Shown: in pieces, positions 3,392 to 18,103 of the stretch
Position numbering within the stretch: the stretch's first letter is position 1
How the letters are laid out: each line of letters starts with the position of its first letter
Source: a virus
IMG/VR virus record: IMGVR_UViG_3300042691_021112
Coordinates: 1 to 24,360 of that record
Direction: 5' to 3' (one strand)
DNA length: 24,360 bases
The notes under the pieces: generated by a model
Told to the model about the DNA's origin: nothing
The model's input: only the letters and a program-made list of their open reading frames with translations
The model's database searches: none
Made by a program: the position numbers and the translations under genes

Positions 3392-4105
3392 ATGGAAAAA
3401 AGTAAATTTATCGGTTTTGTCAATCGTTATTATTTGGCAGGTAATACTGATAGTGCTAAATTAGTTGTAGAAGATAAAACTCTTAATACTAAGTTTATTA
3501 GCGCAGACCAAAATGTAATAGGCGAAGTTACACTAAATCAATTTGATTCTGCTAATGCTGAATTAGGTGTGTATGCAACGTCTCAGTTGTTGAAGATGCT
3601 AACTGCAGTAGATGAAAAGATTGACATTAGTTATGGAGAAGTAGATAAAAAGATTTACTCTGTAAACTTCAAAGACTCTTCCGCAAATGTAACTTACATG
3701 TTAGCTGACTTATCAGTTATTCGTCAAGTGCCTAATTTGAAGTCACTTCCAGAGTTCGAGGTTCAGATTGAGCTTAATAAAGATTTTTCAAATACTTTTA
3801 TTAAAGCTAAAAATGCTTTGCCTGAGTCTGATAACTTTGGTGTTGAAAGTAAAGATGGCGAAACTAAAATTATCATCAATCACTCAAGTGTAAATACAAA
3901 TCGTATTGTGTTTAATACAGCTACAAAACAAACAGCTGATATGGAAACTGTATGTTTCTCTGCTAAGTTGTTTAAAGAAATTCTTGTAGCTAATGCAGAC
4001 GCAACTGGATTGTTAGAAGTAAGTTCTAAAGGGTTGGCTCGTGTTACTTTTAGTAATGCAGACTACTCTTCGACATATTATTTGGTTAAATTAACAATTG
4101 CTTAA
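3392..4105 (+). CDS. 45: DNA polymerase sliding clamp (T4 gp45-like)
   Basis: A 237-residue protein close to T4 gp45 in length (about 228). Primary identity is weak, as is usual for gp45 relatives, but the stretch E-L-G-V-Y-A-T-S-Q-L-L-K-M-L corresponds to the gp45 segment where a strand leads into the helix lining the ring, and the protein ends in a beta-rich V-T-F-S-N-A-D-Y-S-S-T-Y-Y-L-V. The strongest support is position: an RFC-like clamp loader and a gp62-like protein follow, the order 45-44-62 of T4. In T4 the trimeric ring tethers the polymerase and also activates late transcription through gp55 and gp33. The ATG at 3392 is the only sensible start. Only two bases separate it from the next gene. 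Confidence 0.8.
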   Translation: MEKSKFIGFVNRYYLAGNTDSAKLVVEDKTLNTKFISADQNVIGEVTLNQFDSANAELGVYATSQLLKMLTAVDEKIDISYGEVDKKIYSVNFKDSSANVTYMLADLSVIRQVPNLKSLPEFEVQIELNKDFSNTFIKAKNALPESDNFGVESKDGETKIIINHSSVNTNRIVFNTATKQTADMETVCFSAKLFKEILVANADATGLLEVSSKGLARVTFSNADYSSTYYLVKLTIA

Positions 4106-4353: not shown

Positions 4354-5283
4354 ATGTTTGGAAATTCAGAACACACTCTTTGGGTAGAGAAGTATAGACC
4401 TGACACTCTAGAAGGGTATGTAGGCAATCAATCGATTGTAGAAAAAGTTAAGATATATCTTGACAATGGCGATGTACCTCATTTATTGTTTTATGGATCA
4501 GCTGGCACGGGTAAGACTACTATGGCAAAGTTGATTGCAAAAAACATTGACTGTGATTTAATGTATATTAACGCTTCAGATGAGAATAATGTCGACACTG
4601 TAAGAGAGAAGATTAAAAGCTTTGCGTCTACAATTGGGTTTCGTCAATGGAAGTTGATTATATTAGATGAGGCTGATTATTTGACTCCTAATGCTCAAGC
4701 AGCATTACGTAACTTAATGGAAACGTTTAGTAAGACTACTCGTTTTATTTTAACATGTAATTACGTAGAGAAGATTATCGATCCTATTCAAAGTCGTTGT
4801 CAAGTATTTGCTATCACTCCTCCTAGTAAGAAAGACGTTGCTATCAGAGTTAATATGATTTTGCAACAAGAAAACGTTTCAGTGAAACCTGAAGATTTAG
4901 TTAGTATTGTAAATGCTGGATATCCAGACATTAGAAGAATATTAAACTCTTGTCAGCGTCAGGTAGTAAATGGGGAATTGACTATTGATAAGCAATCGTT
5001 GATAGAGTCTAACTATATGGATAAGATAGTTGAAATGCTTCAGACTATTAAAGATAAAAAGCAGCTATTTACTTCTATTCGTCAGCTATTAGCAGATAGT
5101 CATGTAAAAGATTATACTGCGTTGTATAGACACTTATACGACAATTTAGATGCATTTGCTGTTGGTCATATAGCTTCTGTTATATTGATTATTGCAGATC
5201 ATCAGTATCAAGATTCTATGGTAGTTGATAAAGAGATAAATGTATGTGCCATGTTTGTAAAAATAATAAACGAATTATACTAA
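4354..5283 (+). CDS. 44: Clamp loader AAA+ ATPase subunit (T4 gp44 / RFC-small-like)
   Basis: A 309-residue AAA+ protein that would open the sliding clamp and load it on primer-template DNA. Visible: N-terminal W-V-E-K-Y-R-P-D-T-L (RFC box II), Walker A G48-S-A-G-T-G-K-T-T, Walker B L-I-I-L-D-E-A-D at 101-108, sensor 1 T-C-N-Y with N136, the RFC-defining S-R-C at 147-149, and sensor 2 P-D-I-R-R-I-L around R194. These are all the catalytic elements, so the ATPase should be active. The C-terminal 100 residues form the helical collar. T4 gp44 is 319 residues. The ATG at 4354 begins three bases after the preceding stop. It would assemble as four copies with one gp62-like protein, encoded at 5517. 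Confidence 0.95.
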   Translation: MFGNSEHTLWVEKYRPDTLEGYVGNQSIVEKVKIYLDNGDVPHLLFYGSAGTGKTTMAKLIAKNIDCDLMYINASDENNVDTVREKIKSFASTIGFRQWKLIILDEADYLTPNAQAALRNLMETFSKTTRFILTCNYVEKIIDPIQSRCQVFAITPPSKKDVAIRVNMILQQENVSVKPEDLVSIVNAGYPDIRRILNSCQRQVVNGELTIDKQSLIESNYMDKIVEMLQTIKDKKQLFTSIRQLLADSHVKDYTALYRHLYDNLDAFAVGHIASVILIIADHQYQDSMVVDKEINVCAMFVKIINELY

Positions 5284-8064: not shown

Positions 8065-9489
8065 ATGACGCAAATACAATTGCCAAAGCTTCGTAAGGTT
8101 GATCCGAACAAGCCAAAGAAAAAGAAAATCCTGTTACTTTCTGATGATTTACGTATGCACTCTGGTATTGCAACAATGTCGCGTGAAATTGTATTACAAA
8201 CTTGTAAAGAGTTTGACTGGGTACAATTAGCAGCGGCTGTACAGCATCCGGATCAAGGTAAAATTTTAGACGTATCTCAAGACATCGTAAATCAAACAGG
8301 AGTAGAAGACGCTTATTTAAAGTTGTATCCATTTAGTGGATACGGTACTCCAGAAGTACTTCGAGAAATTATTAATATGGAAAAACCAGATGCTGTATTG
8401 CACTTCACTGATCCTAGATTTTGGGGTTGGTTGTATGGAATGGAGCATGAATTGAGACAGTTAATGCCTCTTTTCTATTACACTATCTGGGATGACGTTC
8501 CATATCCTCGATGGAATAAACCATTTTACGAGTCTTGTGACTTGTTAATGTGTATTTCCAAACAAACGTATAATATTGTTAAGCAGGTACTTAAAAATAC
8601 TAAACATGAAGATTGGCAAACAACATATGTACCTCATGGTATAAATGAAAATTCATTTTATCCAATTGACGAGTCTCATCCTGAATGGAATGATCTTCAA
8701 GCTTTCCGTAAAGATTTAGTTGGAGATAGTATTGATTTTATTACATTCTATAACGCTCGTAATATTCGTAGAAAACACACTTCAGATTTAATTTTAGGAT
8801 ATAAAGAGTTTTGCGATAAATTGCCTAAAGAAAAAGCAGATAAGTGTTTGTTGTTAATGCATACGGAGCAAGTAGATGACAATGGAACTGACTTACCAGC
8901 TGTTATTAAAGAGCTGTGCCCTTATAACGTTAAATTTACTAGCAATCGTATTATAACAACTAAAGAATTAAATTACCTGTATAATATATCAGACGTAACT
9001 GCTAATATAGCTTCTAATGAAGGATTTGGATTAGGTACTGCAGAGTCTGTTATGGCAGGTACTCCTATAGTAGTTAATGTTACCGGTGGTATGCAAGATC
9101 AGTGTGGGTTTAAAAACGATGAAGGCAATTATTTAACTGAATATGATTATAATGACGAATTTCAAACTAATTCAGTTAGACGTTATACTCGCCATGGCGA
9201 ATGGGTCGAACCTGTATTCCCGGCAGTAAGAACACTTCAAGGGTCTCCTCCCACTCCGTATATATTTGACGACATTGCAGATTACAGAGATTGTGCAGAG
9301 GCACTTAAAACTTGGTATGACAGAGATCGAAATGAAAGAAAGCGTAGGGGTAAAGTTGGAAGAGAATGGATGCTTTCAAAAGAAACAGGATTGAGTGCAG
9401 AGTCAATGGGCGAGCGTTTTATTAAAGATATGAACACAGCCTTTGCTAATTGGACTCCAAGAGTTAAAGTTGAATTGATTAAAATATAA
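8065..9489 (+). CDS. GT-B glycosyltransferase (GT4-like) with N-terminal LPxLRK motif
   Basis: A 474-residue retaining GT-B enzyme. The N-terminal 20 residues carry L6-P-K-L-R-K-V12 and a lysine run ahead of the first Rossmann strand (K-I-L-L-L-S-D-D), so this part is an add-on. The C-terminal domain has E319-G-F-G-L-G-T-A-E327, the E-x7-E nucleotide-sugar motif of GT4 enzymes, then M-A-G-T-P-I-V-V-N. It would transfer a sugar from a nucleotide donor in the cytoplasm; donor and acceptor are not readable. It is the first gene of the glycan island, with three bases to the next glycosyltransferase, which has the same short motif at its C-terminus. A weak AAAGG before the ATG is one of very few Shine-Dalgarno-like sequences in the window. 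Confidence 0.9.
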   Translation: MTQIQLPKLRKVDPNKPKKKKILLLSDDLRMHSGIATMSREIVLQTCKEFDWVQLAAAVQHPDQGKILDVSQDIVNQTGVEDAYLKLYPFSGYGTPEVLREIINMEKPDAVLHFTDPRFWGWLYGMEHELRQLMPLFYYTIWDDVPYPRWNKPFYESCDLLMCISKQTYNIVKQVLKNTKHEDWQTTYVPHGINENSFYPIDESHPEWNDLQAFRKDLVGDSIDFITFYNARNIRRKHTSDLILGYKEFCDKLPKEKADKCLLLMHTEQVDDNGTDLPAVIKELCPYNVKFTSNRIITTKELNYLYNISDVTANIASNEGFGLGTAESVMAGTPIVVNVTGGMQDQCGFKNDEGNYLTEYDYNDEFQTNSVRRYTRHGEWVEPVFPAVRTLQGSPPTPYIFDDIADYRDCAEALKTWYDRDRNERKRRGKVGREWMLSKETGLSAESMGERFIKDMNTAFANWTPRVKVELIKI

Positions 9490-9492
9490 GTT

Positions 9493-10848
9493 ATGAGTAA
9501 ACCAGTATTGGTATTTCAAGCTCCTATCGCTACTCGTAGTGGATATGGAGAGCGTAGTAGAGATTTAGTAAGAGCATTAATAGCTACTGATAAATATGAT
9601 ATTAAAATTGTGTCAACTCGATGGGGTGATACTCCTATGAATGCATTGACTAATGAAGATCAAGACATCATTAGTAGAATGTTAATGGGCCCTATGAATC
9701 AACAGCCTGATGTGTATATGCAAGTTACAGTTCCTAATGAGTTTCAAAAAATAGGAAAACTCAATATAGGAGTTACTGCTGGTATTGAAACTACATTATG
9801 CAGTCCAGAATGGATTGAAGGCATGAATAGAATGGATTTAGTTTTAGTTTCATCAGTGCACGCTAAGTCAGTATTTGAAGCTACATCGTATGAAAAACGA
9901 GACTCAAACACTAACCAAATAGTTGGCCATTTAAAATGTGAAAAACCTATAGAAGTTCTTTTTGAAGGATTGAATTTAGACATATTTGACAAAAATATTC
10001 CAGCTAGTTCAGATACTATATCAGATTTAATGTCTCAAGTTAAAGAAGACTTTGCATTTTTGTTTGTAGGTCATTGGTTGCCTGGTCAGTTTGGCGAAGA
10101 TAGAAAAAATGTAGCGTTAACGATTAAATTGTTTTTAGAGTCGTTTAAAAATAAAACCAACGCGCCTGCATTAATACTTAAAACTTCAGGAGGTAAACCT
10201 AGCATCGTTGATAGAGACGCACTTCAAAATAAGATTGATATCATTAAAAATACGGTAGACACAAAAGTATTGCCTAATATATACATAGTGCATGGAGATT
10301 TGACTGACGCTGAAATGAATGATTTATATAATCATCCTAAAGTAAAGGTGCATGTGTCACTAACTAAAGGAGAAGGATTTGGAAGACCTTTATTAGAAGC
10401 AGCTGTTACAGGTAAACCTATTTTAGTGTCTAATTGGTCAGGGCATCTAGACTTTTTAGATAAAGACACTAGTTGGTTATTGCCAGGTACGCTAACTAAT
10501 GTGCATCCTTCAGCAGCTTGGGATAAAGTTATTTTAACTGAATCACAATGGTGGTCTGTAGAGCAAGGTTATGCCATCGGAATAATGCGTGATATATTTA
10601 AGAATTATAAGAACTACTTAGAAAAATCACGTAAGACTACTAAGCACATTAAAGATAATTTTTCTCTAGCTAAAATGCAAGAAAAAGTTGAAGAATTAAT
10701 TACTCCATGGATTAATAAAATTCCAAAACAAGTGCAATTGCAGTTGCCTAAATTAAAGAAAGTTGGCAGTGAAGAACCTAAAAAAATTGAGCTTCCTAAT
10801 TTAAAGAAAATTGAATTACCTCAACTTAAAAAAGTAGAAGATGCCTAA
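9493..10848 (+). CDS. GT-B glycosyltransferase (GT4-like) with triple C-terminal LPxLKK repeat
   Basis: A 451-residue GT-B protein. The N-terminal A-P-I-A-T-R-S-G-Y-G-E-R-S-R-D-L-V resembles the acceptor-side glycine loop of GT4 enzymes; the donor domain has G-E294-G-F-G-R-P-L-L-E302 (E-x7-E) and T-G-K-P-I-L-V-S. After residue 410 the fold ends and a tail follows with L418-P-K-L-K-K-V, L434-P-N-L-K-K-I and L442-P-Q-L-K-K-V. The same motif opens the preceding protein, which suggests that the two enzymes dock to a common partner or to each other. The last eight bases overlap the next gene. Confidence 0.9.
   Translation: MSKPVLVFQAPIATRSGYGERSRDLVRALIATDKYDIKIVSTRWGDTPMNALTNEDQDIISRMLMGPMNQQPDVYMQVTVPNEFQKIGKLNIGVTAGIETTLCSPEWIEGMNRMDLVLVSSVHAKSVFEATSYEKRDSNTNQIVGHLKCEKPIEVLFEGLNLDIFDKNIPASSDTISDLMSQVKEDFAFLFVGHWLPGQFGEDRKNVALTIKLFLESFKNKTNAPALILKTSGGKPSIVDRDALQNKIDIIKNTVDTKVLPNIYIVHGDLTDAEMNDLYNHPKVKVHVSLTKGEGFGRPLLEAAVTGKPILVSNWSGHLDFLDKDTSWLLPGTLTNVHPSAAWDKVILTESQWWSVEQGYAIGIMRDIFKNYKNYLEKSRKTTKHIKDNFSLAKMQEKVEELITPWINKIPKQVQLQLPKLKKVGSEEPKKIELPNLKKIELPQLKKVEDA
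10744..10836 (+). repeat. Three in-frame repeats encoding L-P-x-L-K-K-[VI]
   Basis: Copies at 10744-10764, 10792-10812 and 10816-10836, with a fourth, related copy at 8080-8100 in the preceding gene (L-P-K-L-R-K-V). Codon choice differs among copies (TTGCCTAAATTAAAG, CTTCCTAATTTAAAG, TTACCTCAACTTAAA), so the peptide rather than the DNA is being conserved. Confidence 0.75.
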
Positions 10849-11467
10849 TATTAGCTACGCTATAATGACTCATAATGAAGGGGAGTGTATTGAAAAATTA
10901 CTTTCCTTCATTATAGAGAATAAACAAGACAATGATGAAATTGTAGTAATAGACGACTACTCTACAGATCCAGTTACTAAAGCTATTCTAGAAGAGCATG
11001 AGTCTATGAATCATATAAAATTGTTTAAGCGAGAGCTTAACAAAGACTTTGCTGCGCAGAAAAACTTTATGACTGAAAAATGTACCAATGAATGGATATT
11101 TAACATTGATGCAGATGAGATGCCAGATGCTGCTTTGATTGATATACTGCCAGAGATAATTTCAATTAACAAAAGCGTTGATTGTATTGCAGTTCCTAGA
11201 GCAAACATTGTTAATGGAATTACTAATGAGCATATACAAAAATGGGGCTGGAGTAAAGATAGTAAAAATCGTATTAATTGGCCTGATTATCAGCTTCGTA
11301 TATATAAACGAAATCCTAAAATTAAATGGATAGGAGCTGTACATGAAAGACCTTCTGGATGGGATATTATATCTAGTATACCTGCCGATGAAGAGGACTT
11401 ATGCTTACATCATGTAAAAGACATTTCAAAACAAGAATTGCAAAATGAATTTTATGGAACAATCTAA
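10841..11467 (+). CDS. GT2-family glycosyltransferase (WaaE-like)
   Basis: A 208-residue GT-A enzyme. Landmarks: I-S-Y-A-I-M-T-H-N-E-G-E at the N-terminus, V-V-I-D-D-Y-S-T-D near 35-43 and the metal-binding D-A-D-E in I-D90-A-D-E-M. A later basic Y-Q-L-R-I-Y-K-R, then W-I-G-A-V-H-E-R-P, is the pattern of WaaE/KdtX-type GT2 enzymes, which add sugar to lipopolysaccharide core; this gives a family resemblance, not a proven acceptor. It is shorter than usual (about 250). The ATG is eight bases inside the previous gene and the end overlaps the next gene by 23 or 14 bases. Confidence 0.88.
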   Translation: MPNISYAIMTHNEGECIEKLLSFIIENKQDNDEIVVIDDYSTDPVTKAILEEHESMNHIKLFKRELNKDFAAQKNFMTEKCTNEWIFNIDADEMPDAALIDILPEIISINKSVDCIAVPRANIVNGITNEHIQKWGWSKDSKNRINWPDYQLRIYKRNPKIKWIGAVHERPSGWDIISSIPADEEDLCLHHVKDISKQELQNEFYGTI

Positions 11468-15558: not shown

Positions 15559-16422
15559 ATGAATATACTAGTAACAGGAGGAGCTGGATTTGTCGGCTCT
15601 AATTTAGTTAAACAGCTAAAACAAAAAGGAAATAGTATTGTTGTAATTGACAATTACAGTTCTGGTAAGCACGAAAATGAAATTGAAGGTGTAATATACA
15701 TTGAAGATCATACTAAAAATATTAATAAGATTGAATTGCCATTTATTCCTGACGTAATATTTCATTTAGGAGAATATTCTAGGATACATCCTTCATTTAA
15801 TGAATATGAAAAGGTATGGGATTACAATACAGTTGGTACATTTGAAGTAATTACTTTTTGTATCAAACATAATATTAAAATTGTTTATGCCGGATCTAGT
15901 ACTAAATTTGCATGGGAAGGTGTGACACATTCTCCATATTCATTAACTAAATCAATGAGTATTGATTTAGTTAAAGCATTTAGTGAGTGGTATGGGCTAA
16001 AATATTCAATTTGTTATTTTTATAATGTATTTGGACCTGGGCATAATAGTAGCCCTGTAAAAGGATATGAAGGTGTTATTAGCATTTTCGAAGACCAGTA
16101 TAGAAATAATGAGCCACTTACAGTAGTAGGAACGGGAGAACAAAAAAGAATGTTTACTTATGTCGACGATATTGTTGATGGATTGATTCGTTCCTGGCAC
16201 TATACTGAAAATGAAGAATTTGAATTAGGCAATCCTAGATTATACAAAATTATTGATATTGCAAAGATGTTCACTGATAATATTGTTTATGTCGAGTCTA
16301 GAAAAGGAGACCGTGATAATAGCGTTATAACTGAACCAAATCGTACTCTTAAATTATTAGGATGGCAGCCGACAATGAATATTGAAGAATGGATTGAAAG
16401 ATTTAAAAATAATACAATATAA
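15559..16422 (+). CDS. NAD-dependent epimerase/dehydratase (extended SDR)
   Basis: A 287-residue extended short-chain dehydrogenase. T-G-G-A-G-F-V-G at 6-13 is the NAD-binding glycine motif, V-I-D-N-Y-S-S-G-K the adenosine-side loop, G-S-S-T around 112-115 and Y127-S-L-T-K131 the catalytic serine/threonine and Y-x3-K. N-V-F-G-P-G-H and G-T-G-E-Q-K-R-M-F-T-Y-V-D-D follow as in UDP-sugar 4-epimerases and dehydratases. It is shorter than GalE (about 338), but all catalytic residues remain. It should interconvert or dehydrate a nucleotide sugar for the neighbouring transferases. The exact substrate is not determinable. Confidence 0.9.
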   Translation: MNILVTGGAGFVGSNLVKQLKQKGNSIVVIDNYSSGKHENEIEGVIYIEDHTKNINKIELPFIPDVIFHLGEYSRIHPSFNEYEKVWDYNTVGTFEVITFCIKHNIKIVYAGSSTKFAWEGVTHSPYSLTKSMSIDLVKAFSEWYGLKYSICYFYNVFGPGHNSSPVKGYEGVISIFEDQYRNNEPLTVVGTGEQKRMFTYVDDIVDGLIRSWHYTENEEFELGNPRLYKIIDIAKMFTDNIVYVESRKGDRDNSVITEPNRTLKLLGWQPTMNIEEWIERFKNNTI

Positions 16423-17140: not shown

Positions 17141-18103
17141 ATGAAAAACAAAAAAATACTATTAATAGGAGGCACAGGAGCTTTAGGAAAGCAACTTACG
17201 AAATTATATCAAGACTCTAACAATATTAGAATTTTAAGCCGTGACGAGCATAAACAGGTAGCATTAATGTCAGCTGAATGGATAAATAAAGAAACAGTAT
17301 CATTTATGATCGGCGACGTTAAAGATAAGGACTCAATTTATAATGCAATATCAGAATATCAGCCAGATATAGTTATTAACGCTGCAGCTATGAAACACGT
17401 GCCAATTGCAGAATATAATCCATATGAATCTGTTAATGTTAATATCATCGGTCATCAAAATTTATTAGAATGTATTTCTAGGTCAACGCATAAGATTGAA
17501 ACGGTAATTTATGTTTCTTCAGATAAAGCATGTAAACCAGTTAACGTATACGGGATGTGTAAAGCAATTTCAGAACGTTTATATATTGAATTTGCAAAAA
17601 AACAGAAGGATATTAAAGTTTGTCTGGTTAGATACGGCAATGTTTTAGAGTCTACAGGGTCTGTCATTCCATATTTTAAACAATTAATTAATTCTGGTAG
17701 CAATACATTACCAATCACAGATATTAGAATGACTCGTTTTTTATTAACATTAGAAGAAGCTGTTAGTTTAATCGATTGGGCGTACCAAACCCCGGAGGCA
17801 CATGGATGTATTGCAATTCCAAAAGTGCAATCGTTTAAAATTGAACATATCGCAAAAGCATTAATCAAACGTTATAAAGGAGATTATGATGCAATGAAAT
17901 TAAATTTGATAGGTATTCGTAAAGGAGAAAAGTTACACGAAGAAATGATATCTTCAGAAGAATGGATGCGGACTATTGAGATGAAAAATTTTCTTATAAC
18001 TGATAGTATAGTGACTGACGAGTGTAGATCATATAATTCATATGATTCATTAATGCCTGAAAATGACGTATATAACTTTTTAATTAAATCAAACATAATA
18101 TAA
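17141..18103 (+). CDS. PseB/CapD-type nucleotide-sugar 4,6-dehydratase
   Basis: A 320-residue SDR of the polysaccharide-biosynthesis CapD/PseB/FlaA1 group. G10-G-T-G-A-L-G16 binds the cofactor; A-A-M-K-H-V-P-I-A-E-Y-N-P-Y-E at 82-96, V-S-S-D-K-A-C-K-P-V-N-V-Y137-G-M-C-K141 and later M-T-R-F and G-I-R-K-G-E-K-L-H-E-E are the family hallmarks. Retention of Tyr in Y-x3-K resembles PseB more than FlaA1. Such enzymes act on UDP-GlcNAc to give a 4-keto-6-deoxy sugar. The RmlD-like gene at 18657 could reduce or epimerise the product, as in CapD/CapF routes to UDP-N-acetyl-fucosamine; this coupling is inference. Confidence 0.9.
   Translation: MKNKKILLIGGTGALGKQLTKLYQDSNNIRILSRDEHKQVALMSAEWINKETVSFMIGDVKDKDSIYNAISEYQPDIVINAAAMKHVPIAEYNPYESVNVNIIGHQNLLECISRSTHKIETVIYVSSDKACKPVNVYGMCKAISERLYIEFAKKQKDIKVCLVRYGNVLESTGSVIPYFKQLINSGSNTLPITDIRMTRFLLTLEEAVSLIDWAYQTPEAHGCIAIPKVQSFKIEHIAKALIKRYKGDYDAMKLNLIGIRKGEKLHEEMISSEEWMRTIEMKNFLITDSIVTDECRSYNSYDSLMPENDVYNFLIKSNII

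Follow-up and report, generated by a model that had tools for sequence, protein, structure and literature searches.

The locus considered here raises the question of why two adjacent phage glycosyltransferases should share a short peptide at their outer ends. Large phages often bear long islands of sugar genes whose target is obscure, and a plug peptide offers a direct handle on such an island, as the protein that binds it would reveal what the enzymes act on or assemble with. The window, which is the whole stretch of DNA that was analyzed, is a 24,360-base virus record from a large aquatic phage. It encodes GroEL, a gp45-like sliding clamp, gp44 and gp62 clamp-loader genes and a PD-(D/E)XK nuclease, followed by a long glycosylation island, with GroEL and the nuclease having been identified via homology to annotated genes of the isolated Flavobacterium phage immuto. 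The first genes of the island encode the two glycosyltransferases, referred to as GT1 and GT2. The relevant features are as follows.

3392-4105: gp45-like clamp, by profile match to RB69/T4 gp45 (E 2.4e-4, 1b77, and 2.2e-3)
8065-9489, plus strand: GT1, a GT4-type glycosyltransferase with the GT-B fold, 474 aa, with a basic N-terminal extension containing one motif copy
8080-8100, plus strand: motif copy 1, LPKLRKV, GT1 residues 6-12
9493-10848, plus strand: GT2, a GT4-type glycosyltransferase with the GT-B fold, 451 aa, with a C-terminal tail containing three motif copies
10732-10845, plus strand: C-terminal tail of GT2, about residues 414-451, basic and predicted to be disordered (pLDDT 33-38)
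10744-10764, plus strand: motif copy 2, LPKLKKV, GT2 C-terminus
10792-10812, plus strand: motif copy 3, LPNLKKI, GT2 C-terminus
10816-10836, plus strand: motif copy 4, LPQLKKV, GT2 C-terminus
10841-11467, plus strand: GT-A, a family-2-type transferase, 208 aa, overlapping the end of GT2 and a candidate docking partner

A first-pass annotation of this DNA had reported four copies of the peptide, one at the N-terminus of GT1 and three at the C-terminus of GT2, each with different codons, as well as a sliding clamp encoded upstream. Both observations hold, the clamp being recognizable by profile as gp45-like. Copies 3 and 4 are arranged in tandem at a spacing of 8 residues, and the last 48 residues of GT2 have a net charge of +5. 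The strict pattern LPxL[KR]K[VI] occurs nowhere else in the six frames of the window.

The conservation of the peptide was examined among relatives of both enzymes. Relatives of GT2 were fetched with six body patterns, all of which lie outside the motif-bearing tail, and relatives of GT1 with six patterns; copies of LPx[LMIF][KR][KR] were then counted within the last 60 residues of GT2 and the first 40 residues of GT1. Absence of the motif from related phage transferases, the outcome that had been named as speaking against the original reading, was not observed. At least one copy is present in 80 of 99 distinct GT2 relatives (27 once, 50 twice, 3 three times), with 53 of the 99 possessing two or three copies, and the 19 tails without a strict copy mostly contain weakened forms such as LPTLEKI and LPKLKML. 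Microcystis phage Mel-JY01 has a decayed form of the motif (MPSLSN...FPALKK). The N-terminal motif is found in 15 of 110 distinct GT1 relatives. The strict motif is absent from the protein bodies of a larger set of 197 GT2 (74,080 aa) and 192 GT1 (83,587 aa) sequences; because this set also holds loci retrieved by the tandem pattern, its tail counts were not used as frequencies.

The consensus of 335 copies is [ILV]-x-L-P-x-L-K-K-[VI]. The earlier description of the copies as preceded by Q, E or similar requires correction, as the preceding residues in the window are QIQ, QLQ, KIE and KIE. The upstream feature that is conserved in relatives is a hydrophobic residue at position -2 (I, L or V in 326/335 copies), while position -1 is variable (K, E, Q or N). 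Synonymous codons are used freely within the motif, with the fixed Leu encoded by TTA, CTT, CTA or TTG and the fixed Pro by CCT, CCA, CCC or CCG, and the motif is retained in relatives down to about 45% identity. This retention despite synonymous codon variation supports the proposal that selection acts on the peptide. Furthermore, on a GT1 tree from which the N-terminal extension was left out, the distribution of the N-terminal motif needs 8 changes, of which at least 5 are forced by well-supported branches and among which gains are not distinguishable from losses; the peptide is therefore gained or lost independently of the enzyme body.

A copy number that varies from 0 to 3, frequent 8-residue tandems, and the ability of Rhodothermus phage RM378 to manage without the motif (see below) would fit a tail that arose as a side effect of repeat expansion, does little, and persists because divergence has been short. 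This explanation is highly improbable, however, as the residues are kept with differing codons across enzymes that are only 45-55% identical, and as separate single copies occur on GT1 and on a Zn-ribbon protein.

The structural context of the peptide was probed by prediction. GT1 and GT2 were modelled with AlphaFold2 as a joined chain; the genes are in the same frame, and the only stop codon that separates them, a TAA, was read as Gln, solely as a device. Both cores are confident GT-B folds (mean pLDDT 89.7), while values drop below 50 in residues 1-9 of GT1 and to an average of 33-38 in the GT2 tail, these two ends together spanning pLDDT 33-47. Consequently, the motif resides on floppy ends outside the fold, and the suggestion that it lies outside the catalytic fold is borne out by the predicted structure. 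Self-docking of the tails onto GT1 or GT2 was also considered, and none was seen in the joined model. The peptide is thus conserved, located in a predicted disordered region, and outside the fold, as is typical of a short linear motif, and LPxLKK[VI] is likely a genuine conserved motif of the docking type, with binding suggested by these properties.

Both enzymes are GT4-type members of the GT-B fold. A Pfam scan (E 0.001) of GT1 and GT2 returned only Glycos_transf_1, Glyco_trans_1_4 and Glyco_trans_1_2, with no match to a T4-type DNA glucosyltransferase family. In the Glycos_transf_1 domain test, GT2 scores 30.7 bits, above the cut-off of 26.4, and GT1 scores 24.6 bits, just below it. The top Foldseek matches are 3oy2 (chlorovirus B736L), PimB' and MshA. 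B736L from chlorovirus NY2A, a GT4 enzyme that is likewise virus-encoded, is the nearest solved structure by both sequence and fold. In contrast to B736L, for which no mention of such ends was found, the phage enzymes have disordered, motif-bearing ends.

In polysaccharide synthesis, peripheral enzymes with the GT-B fold commonly require an anchor to the membrane or to a lipid carrier. The basic and hydrophobic composition of the peptide, the charge of +5 over the last 48 residues of GT2, and the weak similarity of GT1 to the lipid glucosyltransferase model NF049988 (E 1.5e-8) are consistent with the motif being such an anchor. This role appears improbable, however, since the invariant proline and fixed spacing favor specific recognition, the tail is predicted to be disordered rather than an amphipathic helix, and an anchor would be expected to be under looser sequence constraint.

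The first-pass annotation had proposed a search of phage proteins for the motif. Seven sequences, each a genome or large contig, were scanned with a position-specific profile of the motif: immuto (NC_055915) and six IMG/VR records of 125-182 kb. All matches scoring above 16 bits lie in GT1 or GT2, whereas all profile scores from three rounds of shuffled proteomes fall below 16 bits. Only GT1 and GT2 carry the motif in these seven. A match in the major capsid protein (VALPLVRRVF) was dismissed as chance, given its internal position and low score against the profile. In the full set of loci read, the motif is present in 274 ORFs, 272 of which are GT1 or GT2; the two exceptions are a Zn-ribbon protein directly after GT2 in one locus (L156) and one bacterial ORF. 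A 64-aa ORF at 5159 on the minus strand of L361, a bacterial MAG, contains repeated KLPKVKLPKLKKISLPKFKK and adjoins a membrane protein ORF. Scanning IMG/VR with the tandem pattern gave GT2 C-termini for 75 of 78 among the matches listed, with the other 3 being short fragments. A scan of 84,980 genomes of bacteria and archaea with the tandem pattern gave only 4 stretches, of which one is a GT2 relative, probably from a phage. Mimicry of a host peptide was rejected on this basis, as the stretches other than the GT2 relative are unrelated repeats or unclear.

This restriction bears directly on the sliding clamp, which had been put forward as the shared partner in a scheme coupling DNA glycosylation to replication. 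A gp45-like clamp is encoded at 3392-4105, and in T4 gp45 copurifies with alpha-GT, although not with beta-GT (PMC13216743), providing a precedent for a phage glycosyltransferase with a phage protein partner. However, in the seven genomes no polymerase or other potential clamp client scores above 16 bits, and the clamp was dropped as the leading idea because no other protein in these genomes has the peptide. Unlike T4 alpha-GT, GT1 and GT2 match GT4 Pfam families rather than those of the T4 DNA glucosyltransferases, and give no sign of a DNA substrate. In addition, the DNA-modification genes annotated in immuto are of the 7-deazaguanine type, and the neighboring GT-A resembles protein glycosyltransferases. 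Binding to the clamp is therefore very unlikely. The more general proposal of docking to a shared partner fares better, as the peptide is terminal, repeated, extra-catalytic and selected; it is the clamp as that partner that is disfavored.

Together, conservation, restriction to GT1 and GT2, and predicted disorder support binding of the peptide to a partner in trans, and the peptide is probably a plug that fastens GT1 and GT2 to a partner protein. Neighboring genes were considered as sources of that partner. Flanking sequence was sufficient in 54 distinct loci: all 54 contain GT-A as well as the PD-(D/E)XK gene, 48 contain gp62, and 43 contain a Zn-ribbon gene, while further island genes are variable.

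The conserved Zn-ribbon family consists of proteins of about 150 aa with a CPxCG...CFxCGY pattern, encoded between GT2 and GT-A in 43/54 loci, and has no Pfam match over the cut-off. The gene is missing in the clade to which the window belongs. In L156 the Zn-ribbon protein (8801-9289), directly after GT2, itself carries the motif, and its C-terminal end is KINLPKLKKLDG. The family was rejected as the receptor, since it is missing in 11/54 loci including the window's clade and carries the motif itself in L156.

GT-A, which in immuto is gp178, belongs to a superfamily that also includes polysaccharide enzymes. Its top profile match is the transferase domain of GmaR (E 5.6e-16), and Foldseek ranks 1-6 are occupied by SunS and ThuS. 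The SunS family score is not reached, with GT-A scoring 51.2 bits against TIGR04195 (cut-off 350). While the peptide glycosyltransferases SunS and ThuS and the GmaR domain are its best sequence and fold matches, GT-A differs from these proteins in being only about 208 aa long and lacking their extra domains. GmaR is a flagellin O-GlcNAc transferase (PMC9638930). GT-A has a net charge of -13 in the window and of -5 to -21 in aligned relatives, compared with +5 for the GT2 tail.

In one locus (L087) GT-A follows the GT2 tail in the same reading frame, and the two were modelled as one chain with the stop read as Gln. The tail segments DFPKQVQLKL and PQLKKIELPK have mean pLDDT values of 72 and 83, respectively, and the next ten residues 79, in this tethered model with two covering rows and without a scrambled-tail control. 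Both motif copies of the tail thus reach 72-83 when joined to GT-A, as opposed to 33-38 for the tail on GT2. Tethering in a single chain can inflate confidence through proximity alone, and the model is a lead rather than proof.

Comparison with other phages indicates that the presence of GT-A is not a clean predictor of the motif. RM378 has adjacent GT1- and GT2-like genes (Rm378p013 and p014) with GT-A-like genes downstream; unlike the pair in the window, its pair lacks the LPxLKK motif at both termini. RM378 encodes two weak homologues of GT-A side by side, Rm378p016 and p017 (phrog_37334; L238:9651-10277 and 10281-10910). A trio of homologues without the motif implies that the trio as such does not depend on docking by the motif, and, given the two weak GT-A homologues in RM378, the trio of GT1, GT2 and GT-A probably predates the motif. 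When RM378 GT2 was used by itself as a query, RM378 was the sole hit. Conversely, no GT-A is recognizable in the 6-33 kb available for the lineage of L372, L305 and L287, though its GT2 carries the tandem motif.

The likeliest function of the peptide is either to keep GT1 and GT2 together with GT-A in a glycosylation complex or to tether them to the protein that they modify. The second of these possibilities, in which the partner of the motif would be a substrate protein of the phage, for instance a virion or scaffold protein, and GT1 and GT2 would thereby be brought to what they glycosylate, agrees with a motif that is terminal, repeated, disordered and confined to transferases, and with the hint of protein glycosylation given by the GmaR and SunS/ThuS matches of GT-A. 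The nearest structure to GT1 and GT2, B736L, also comes from the chloroviruses, which synthesize the glycans of their virions themselves (PMC5408694), with the function of B736L itself being unproven. Virion glycosylation in the phages considered here is only putative, however, and direct docking onto a substrate protein seems rather unlikely, though less so than anchoring to a membrane.

We tentatively favor GT-A as the partner, with the motif docking the GT2 tail, and in some phages also the GT1 arm, within a glycosylation complex. In such a complex, the GT2 tail and, where present, the N-terminal arm of GT1 would plug in an extended form into the acidic GT-A encoded beside GT2. The two or three copies could raise avidity or bridge several GT-A subunits. 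A phage protein may receive its first sugar from GT-A, after which GT1, GT2 and variable downstream transferases, held in one place, would extend the glycan. More speculatively, LPxLKK[VI] could be a hitherto undescribed peptide code, shared by a broad range of aquatic phages that possess a gp45-like clamp and a clamp loader of the T4 type. The code would bring the phage-encoded GT1, GT2 and GT-A, in some cases along with the Zn-ribbon protein, together as a cascade in a single complex for the glycosylation of phage proteins. Searches of open-access papers found no report of phage glycosyltransferases being assembled through a peptide code.

Several other genes in and around the island were observed. 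A protein encoded at 334-1590 of the window appears by eye to be TGT/DpdA-like, based on a FGDSGGFQI stretch, with only weak PHROG matches, and the record of phage immuto annotates a full 7-deazaguanine DNA-modification pathway. Within the island, positions 17141-18103 encode a PseB-like UDP-GlcNAc 4,6-dehydratase (E 2.2e-78), and two more sugar-nucleotide epimerase/dehydratase genes are located at 15559 and 20073.
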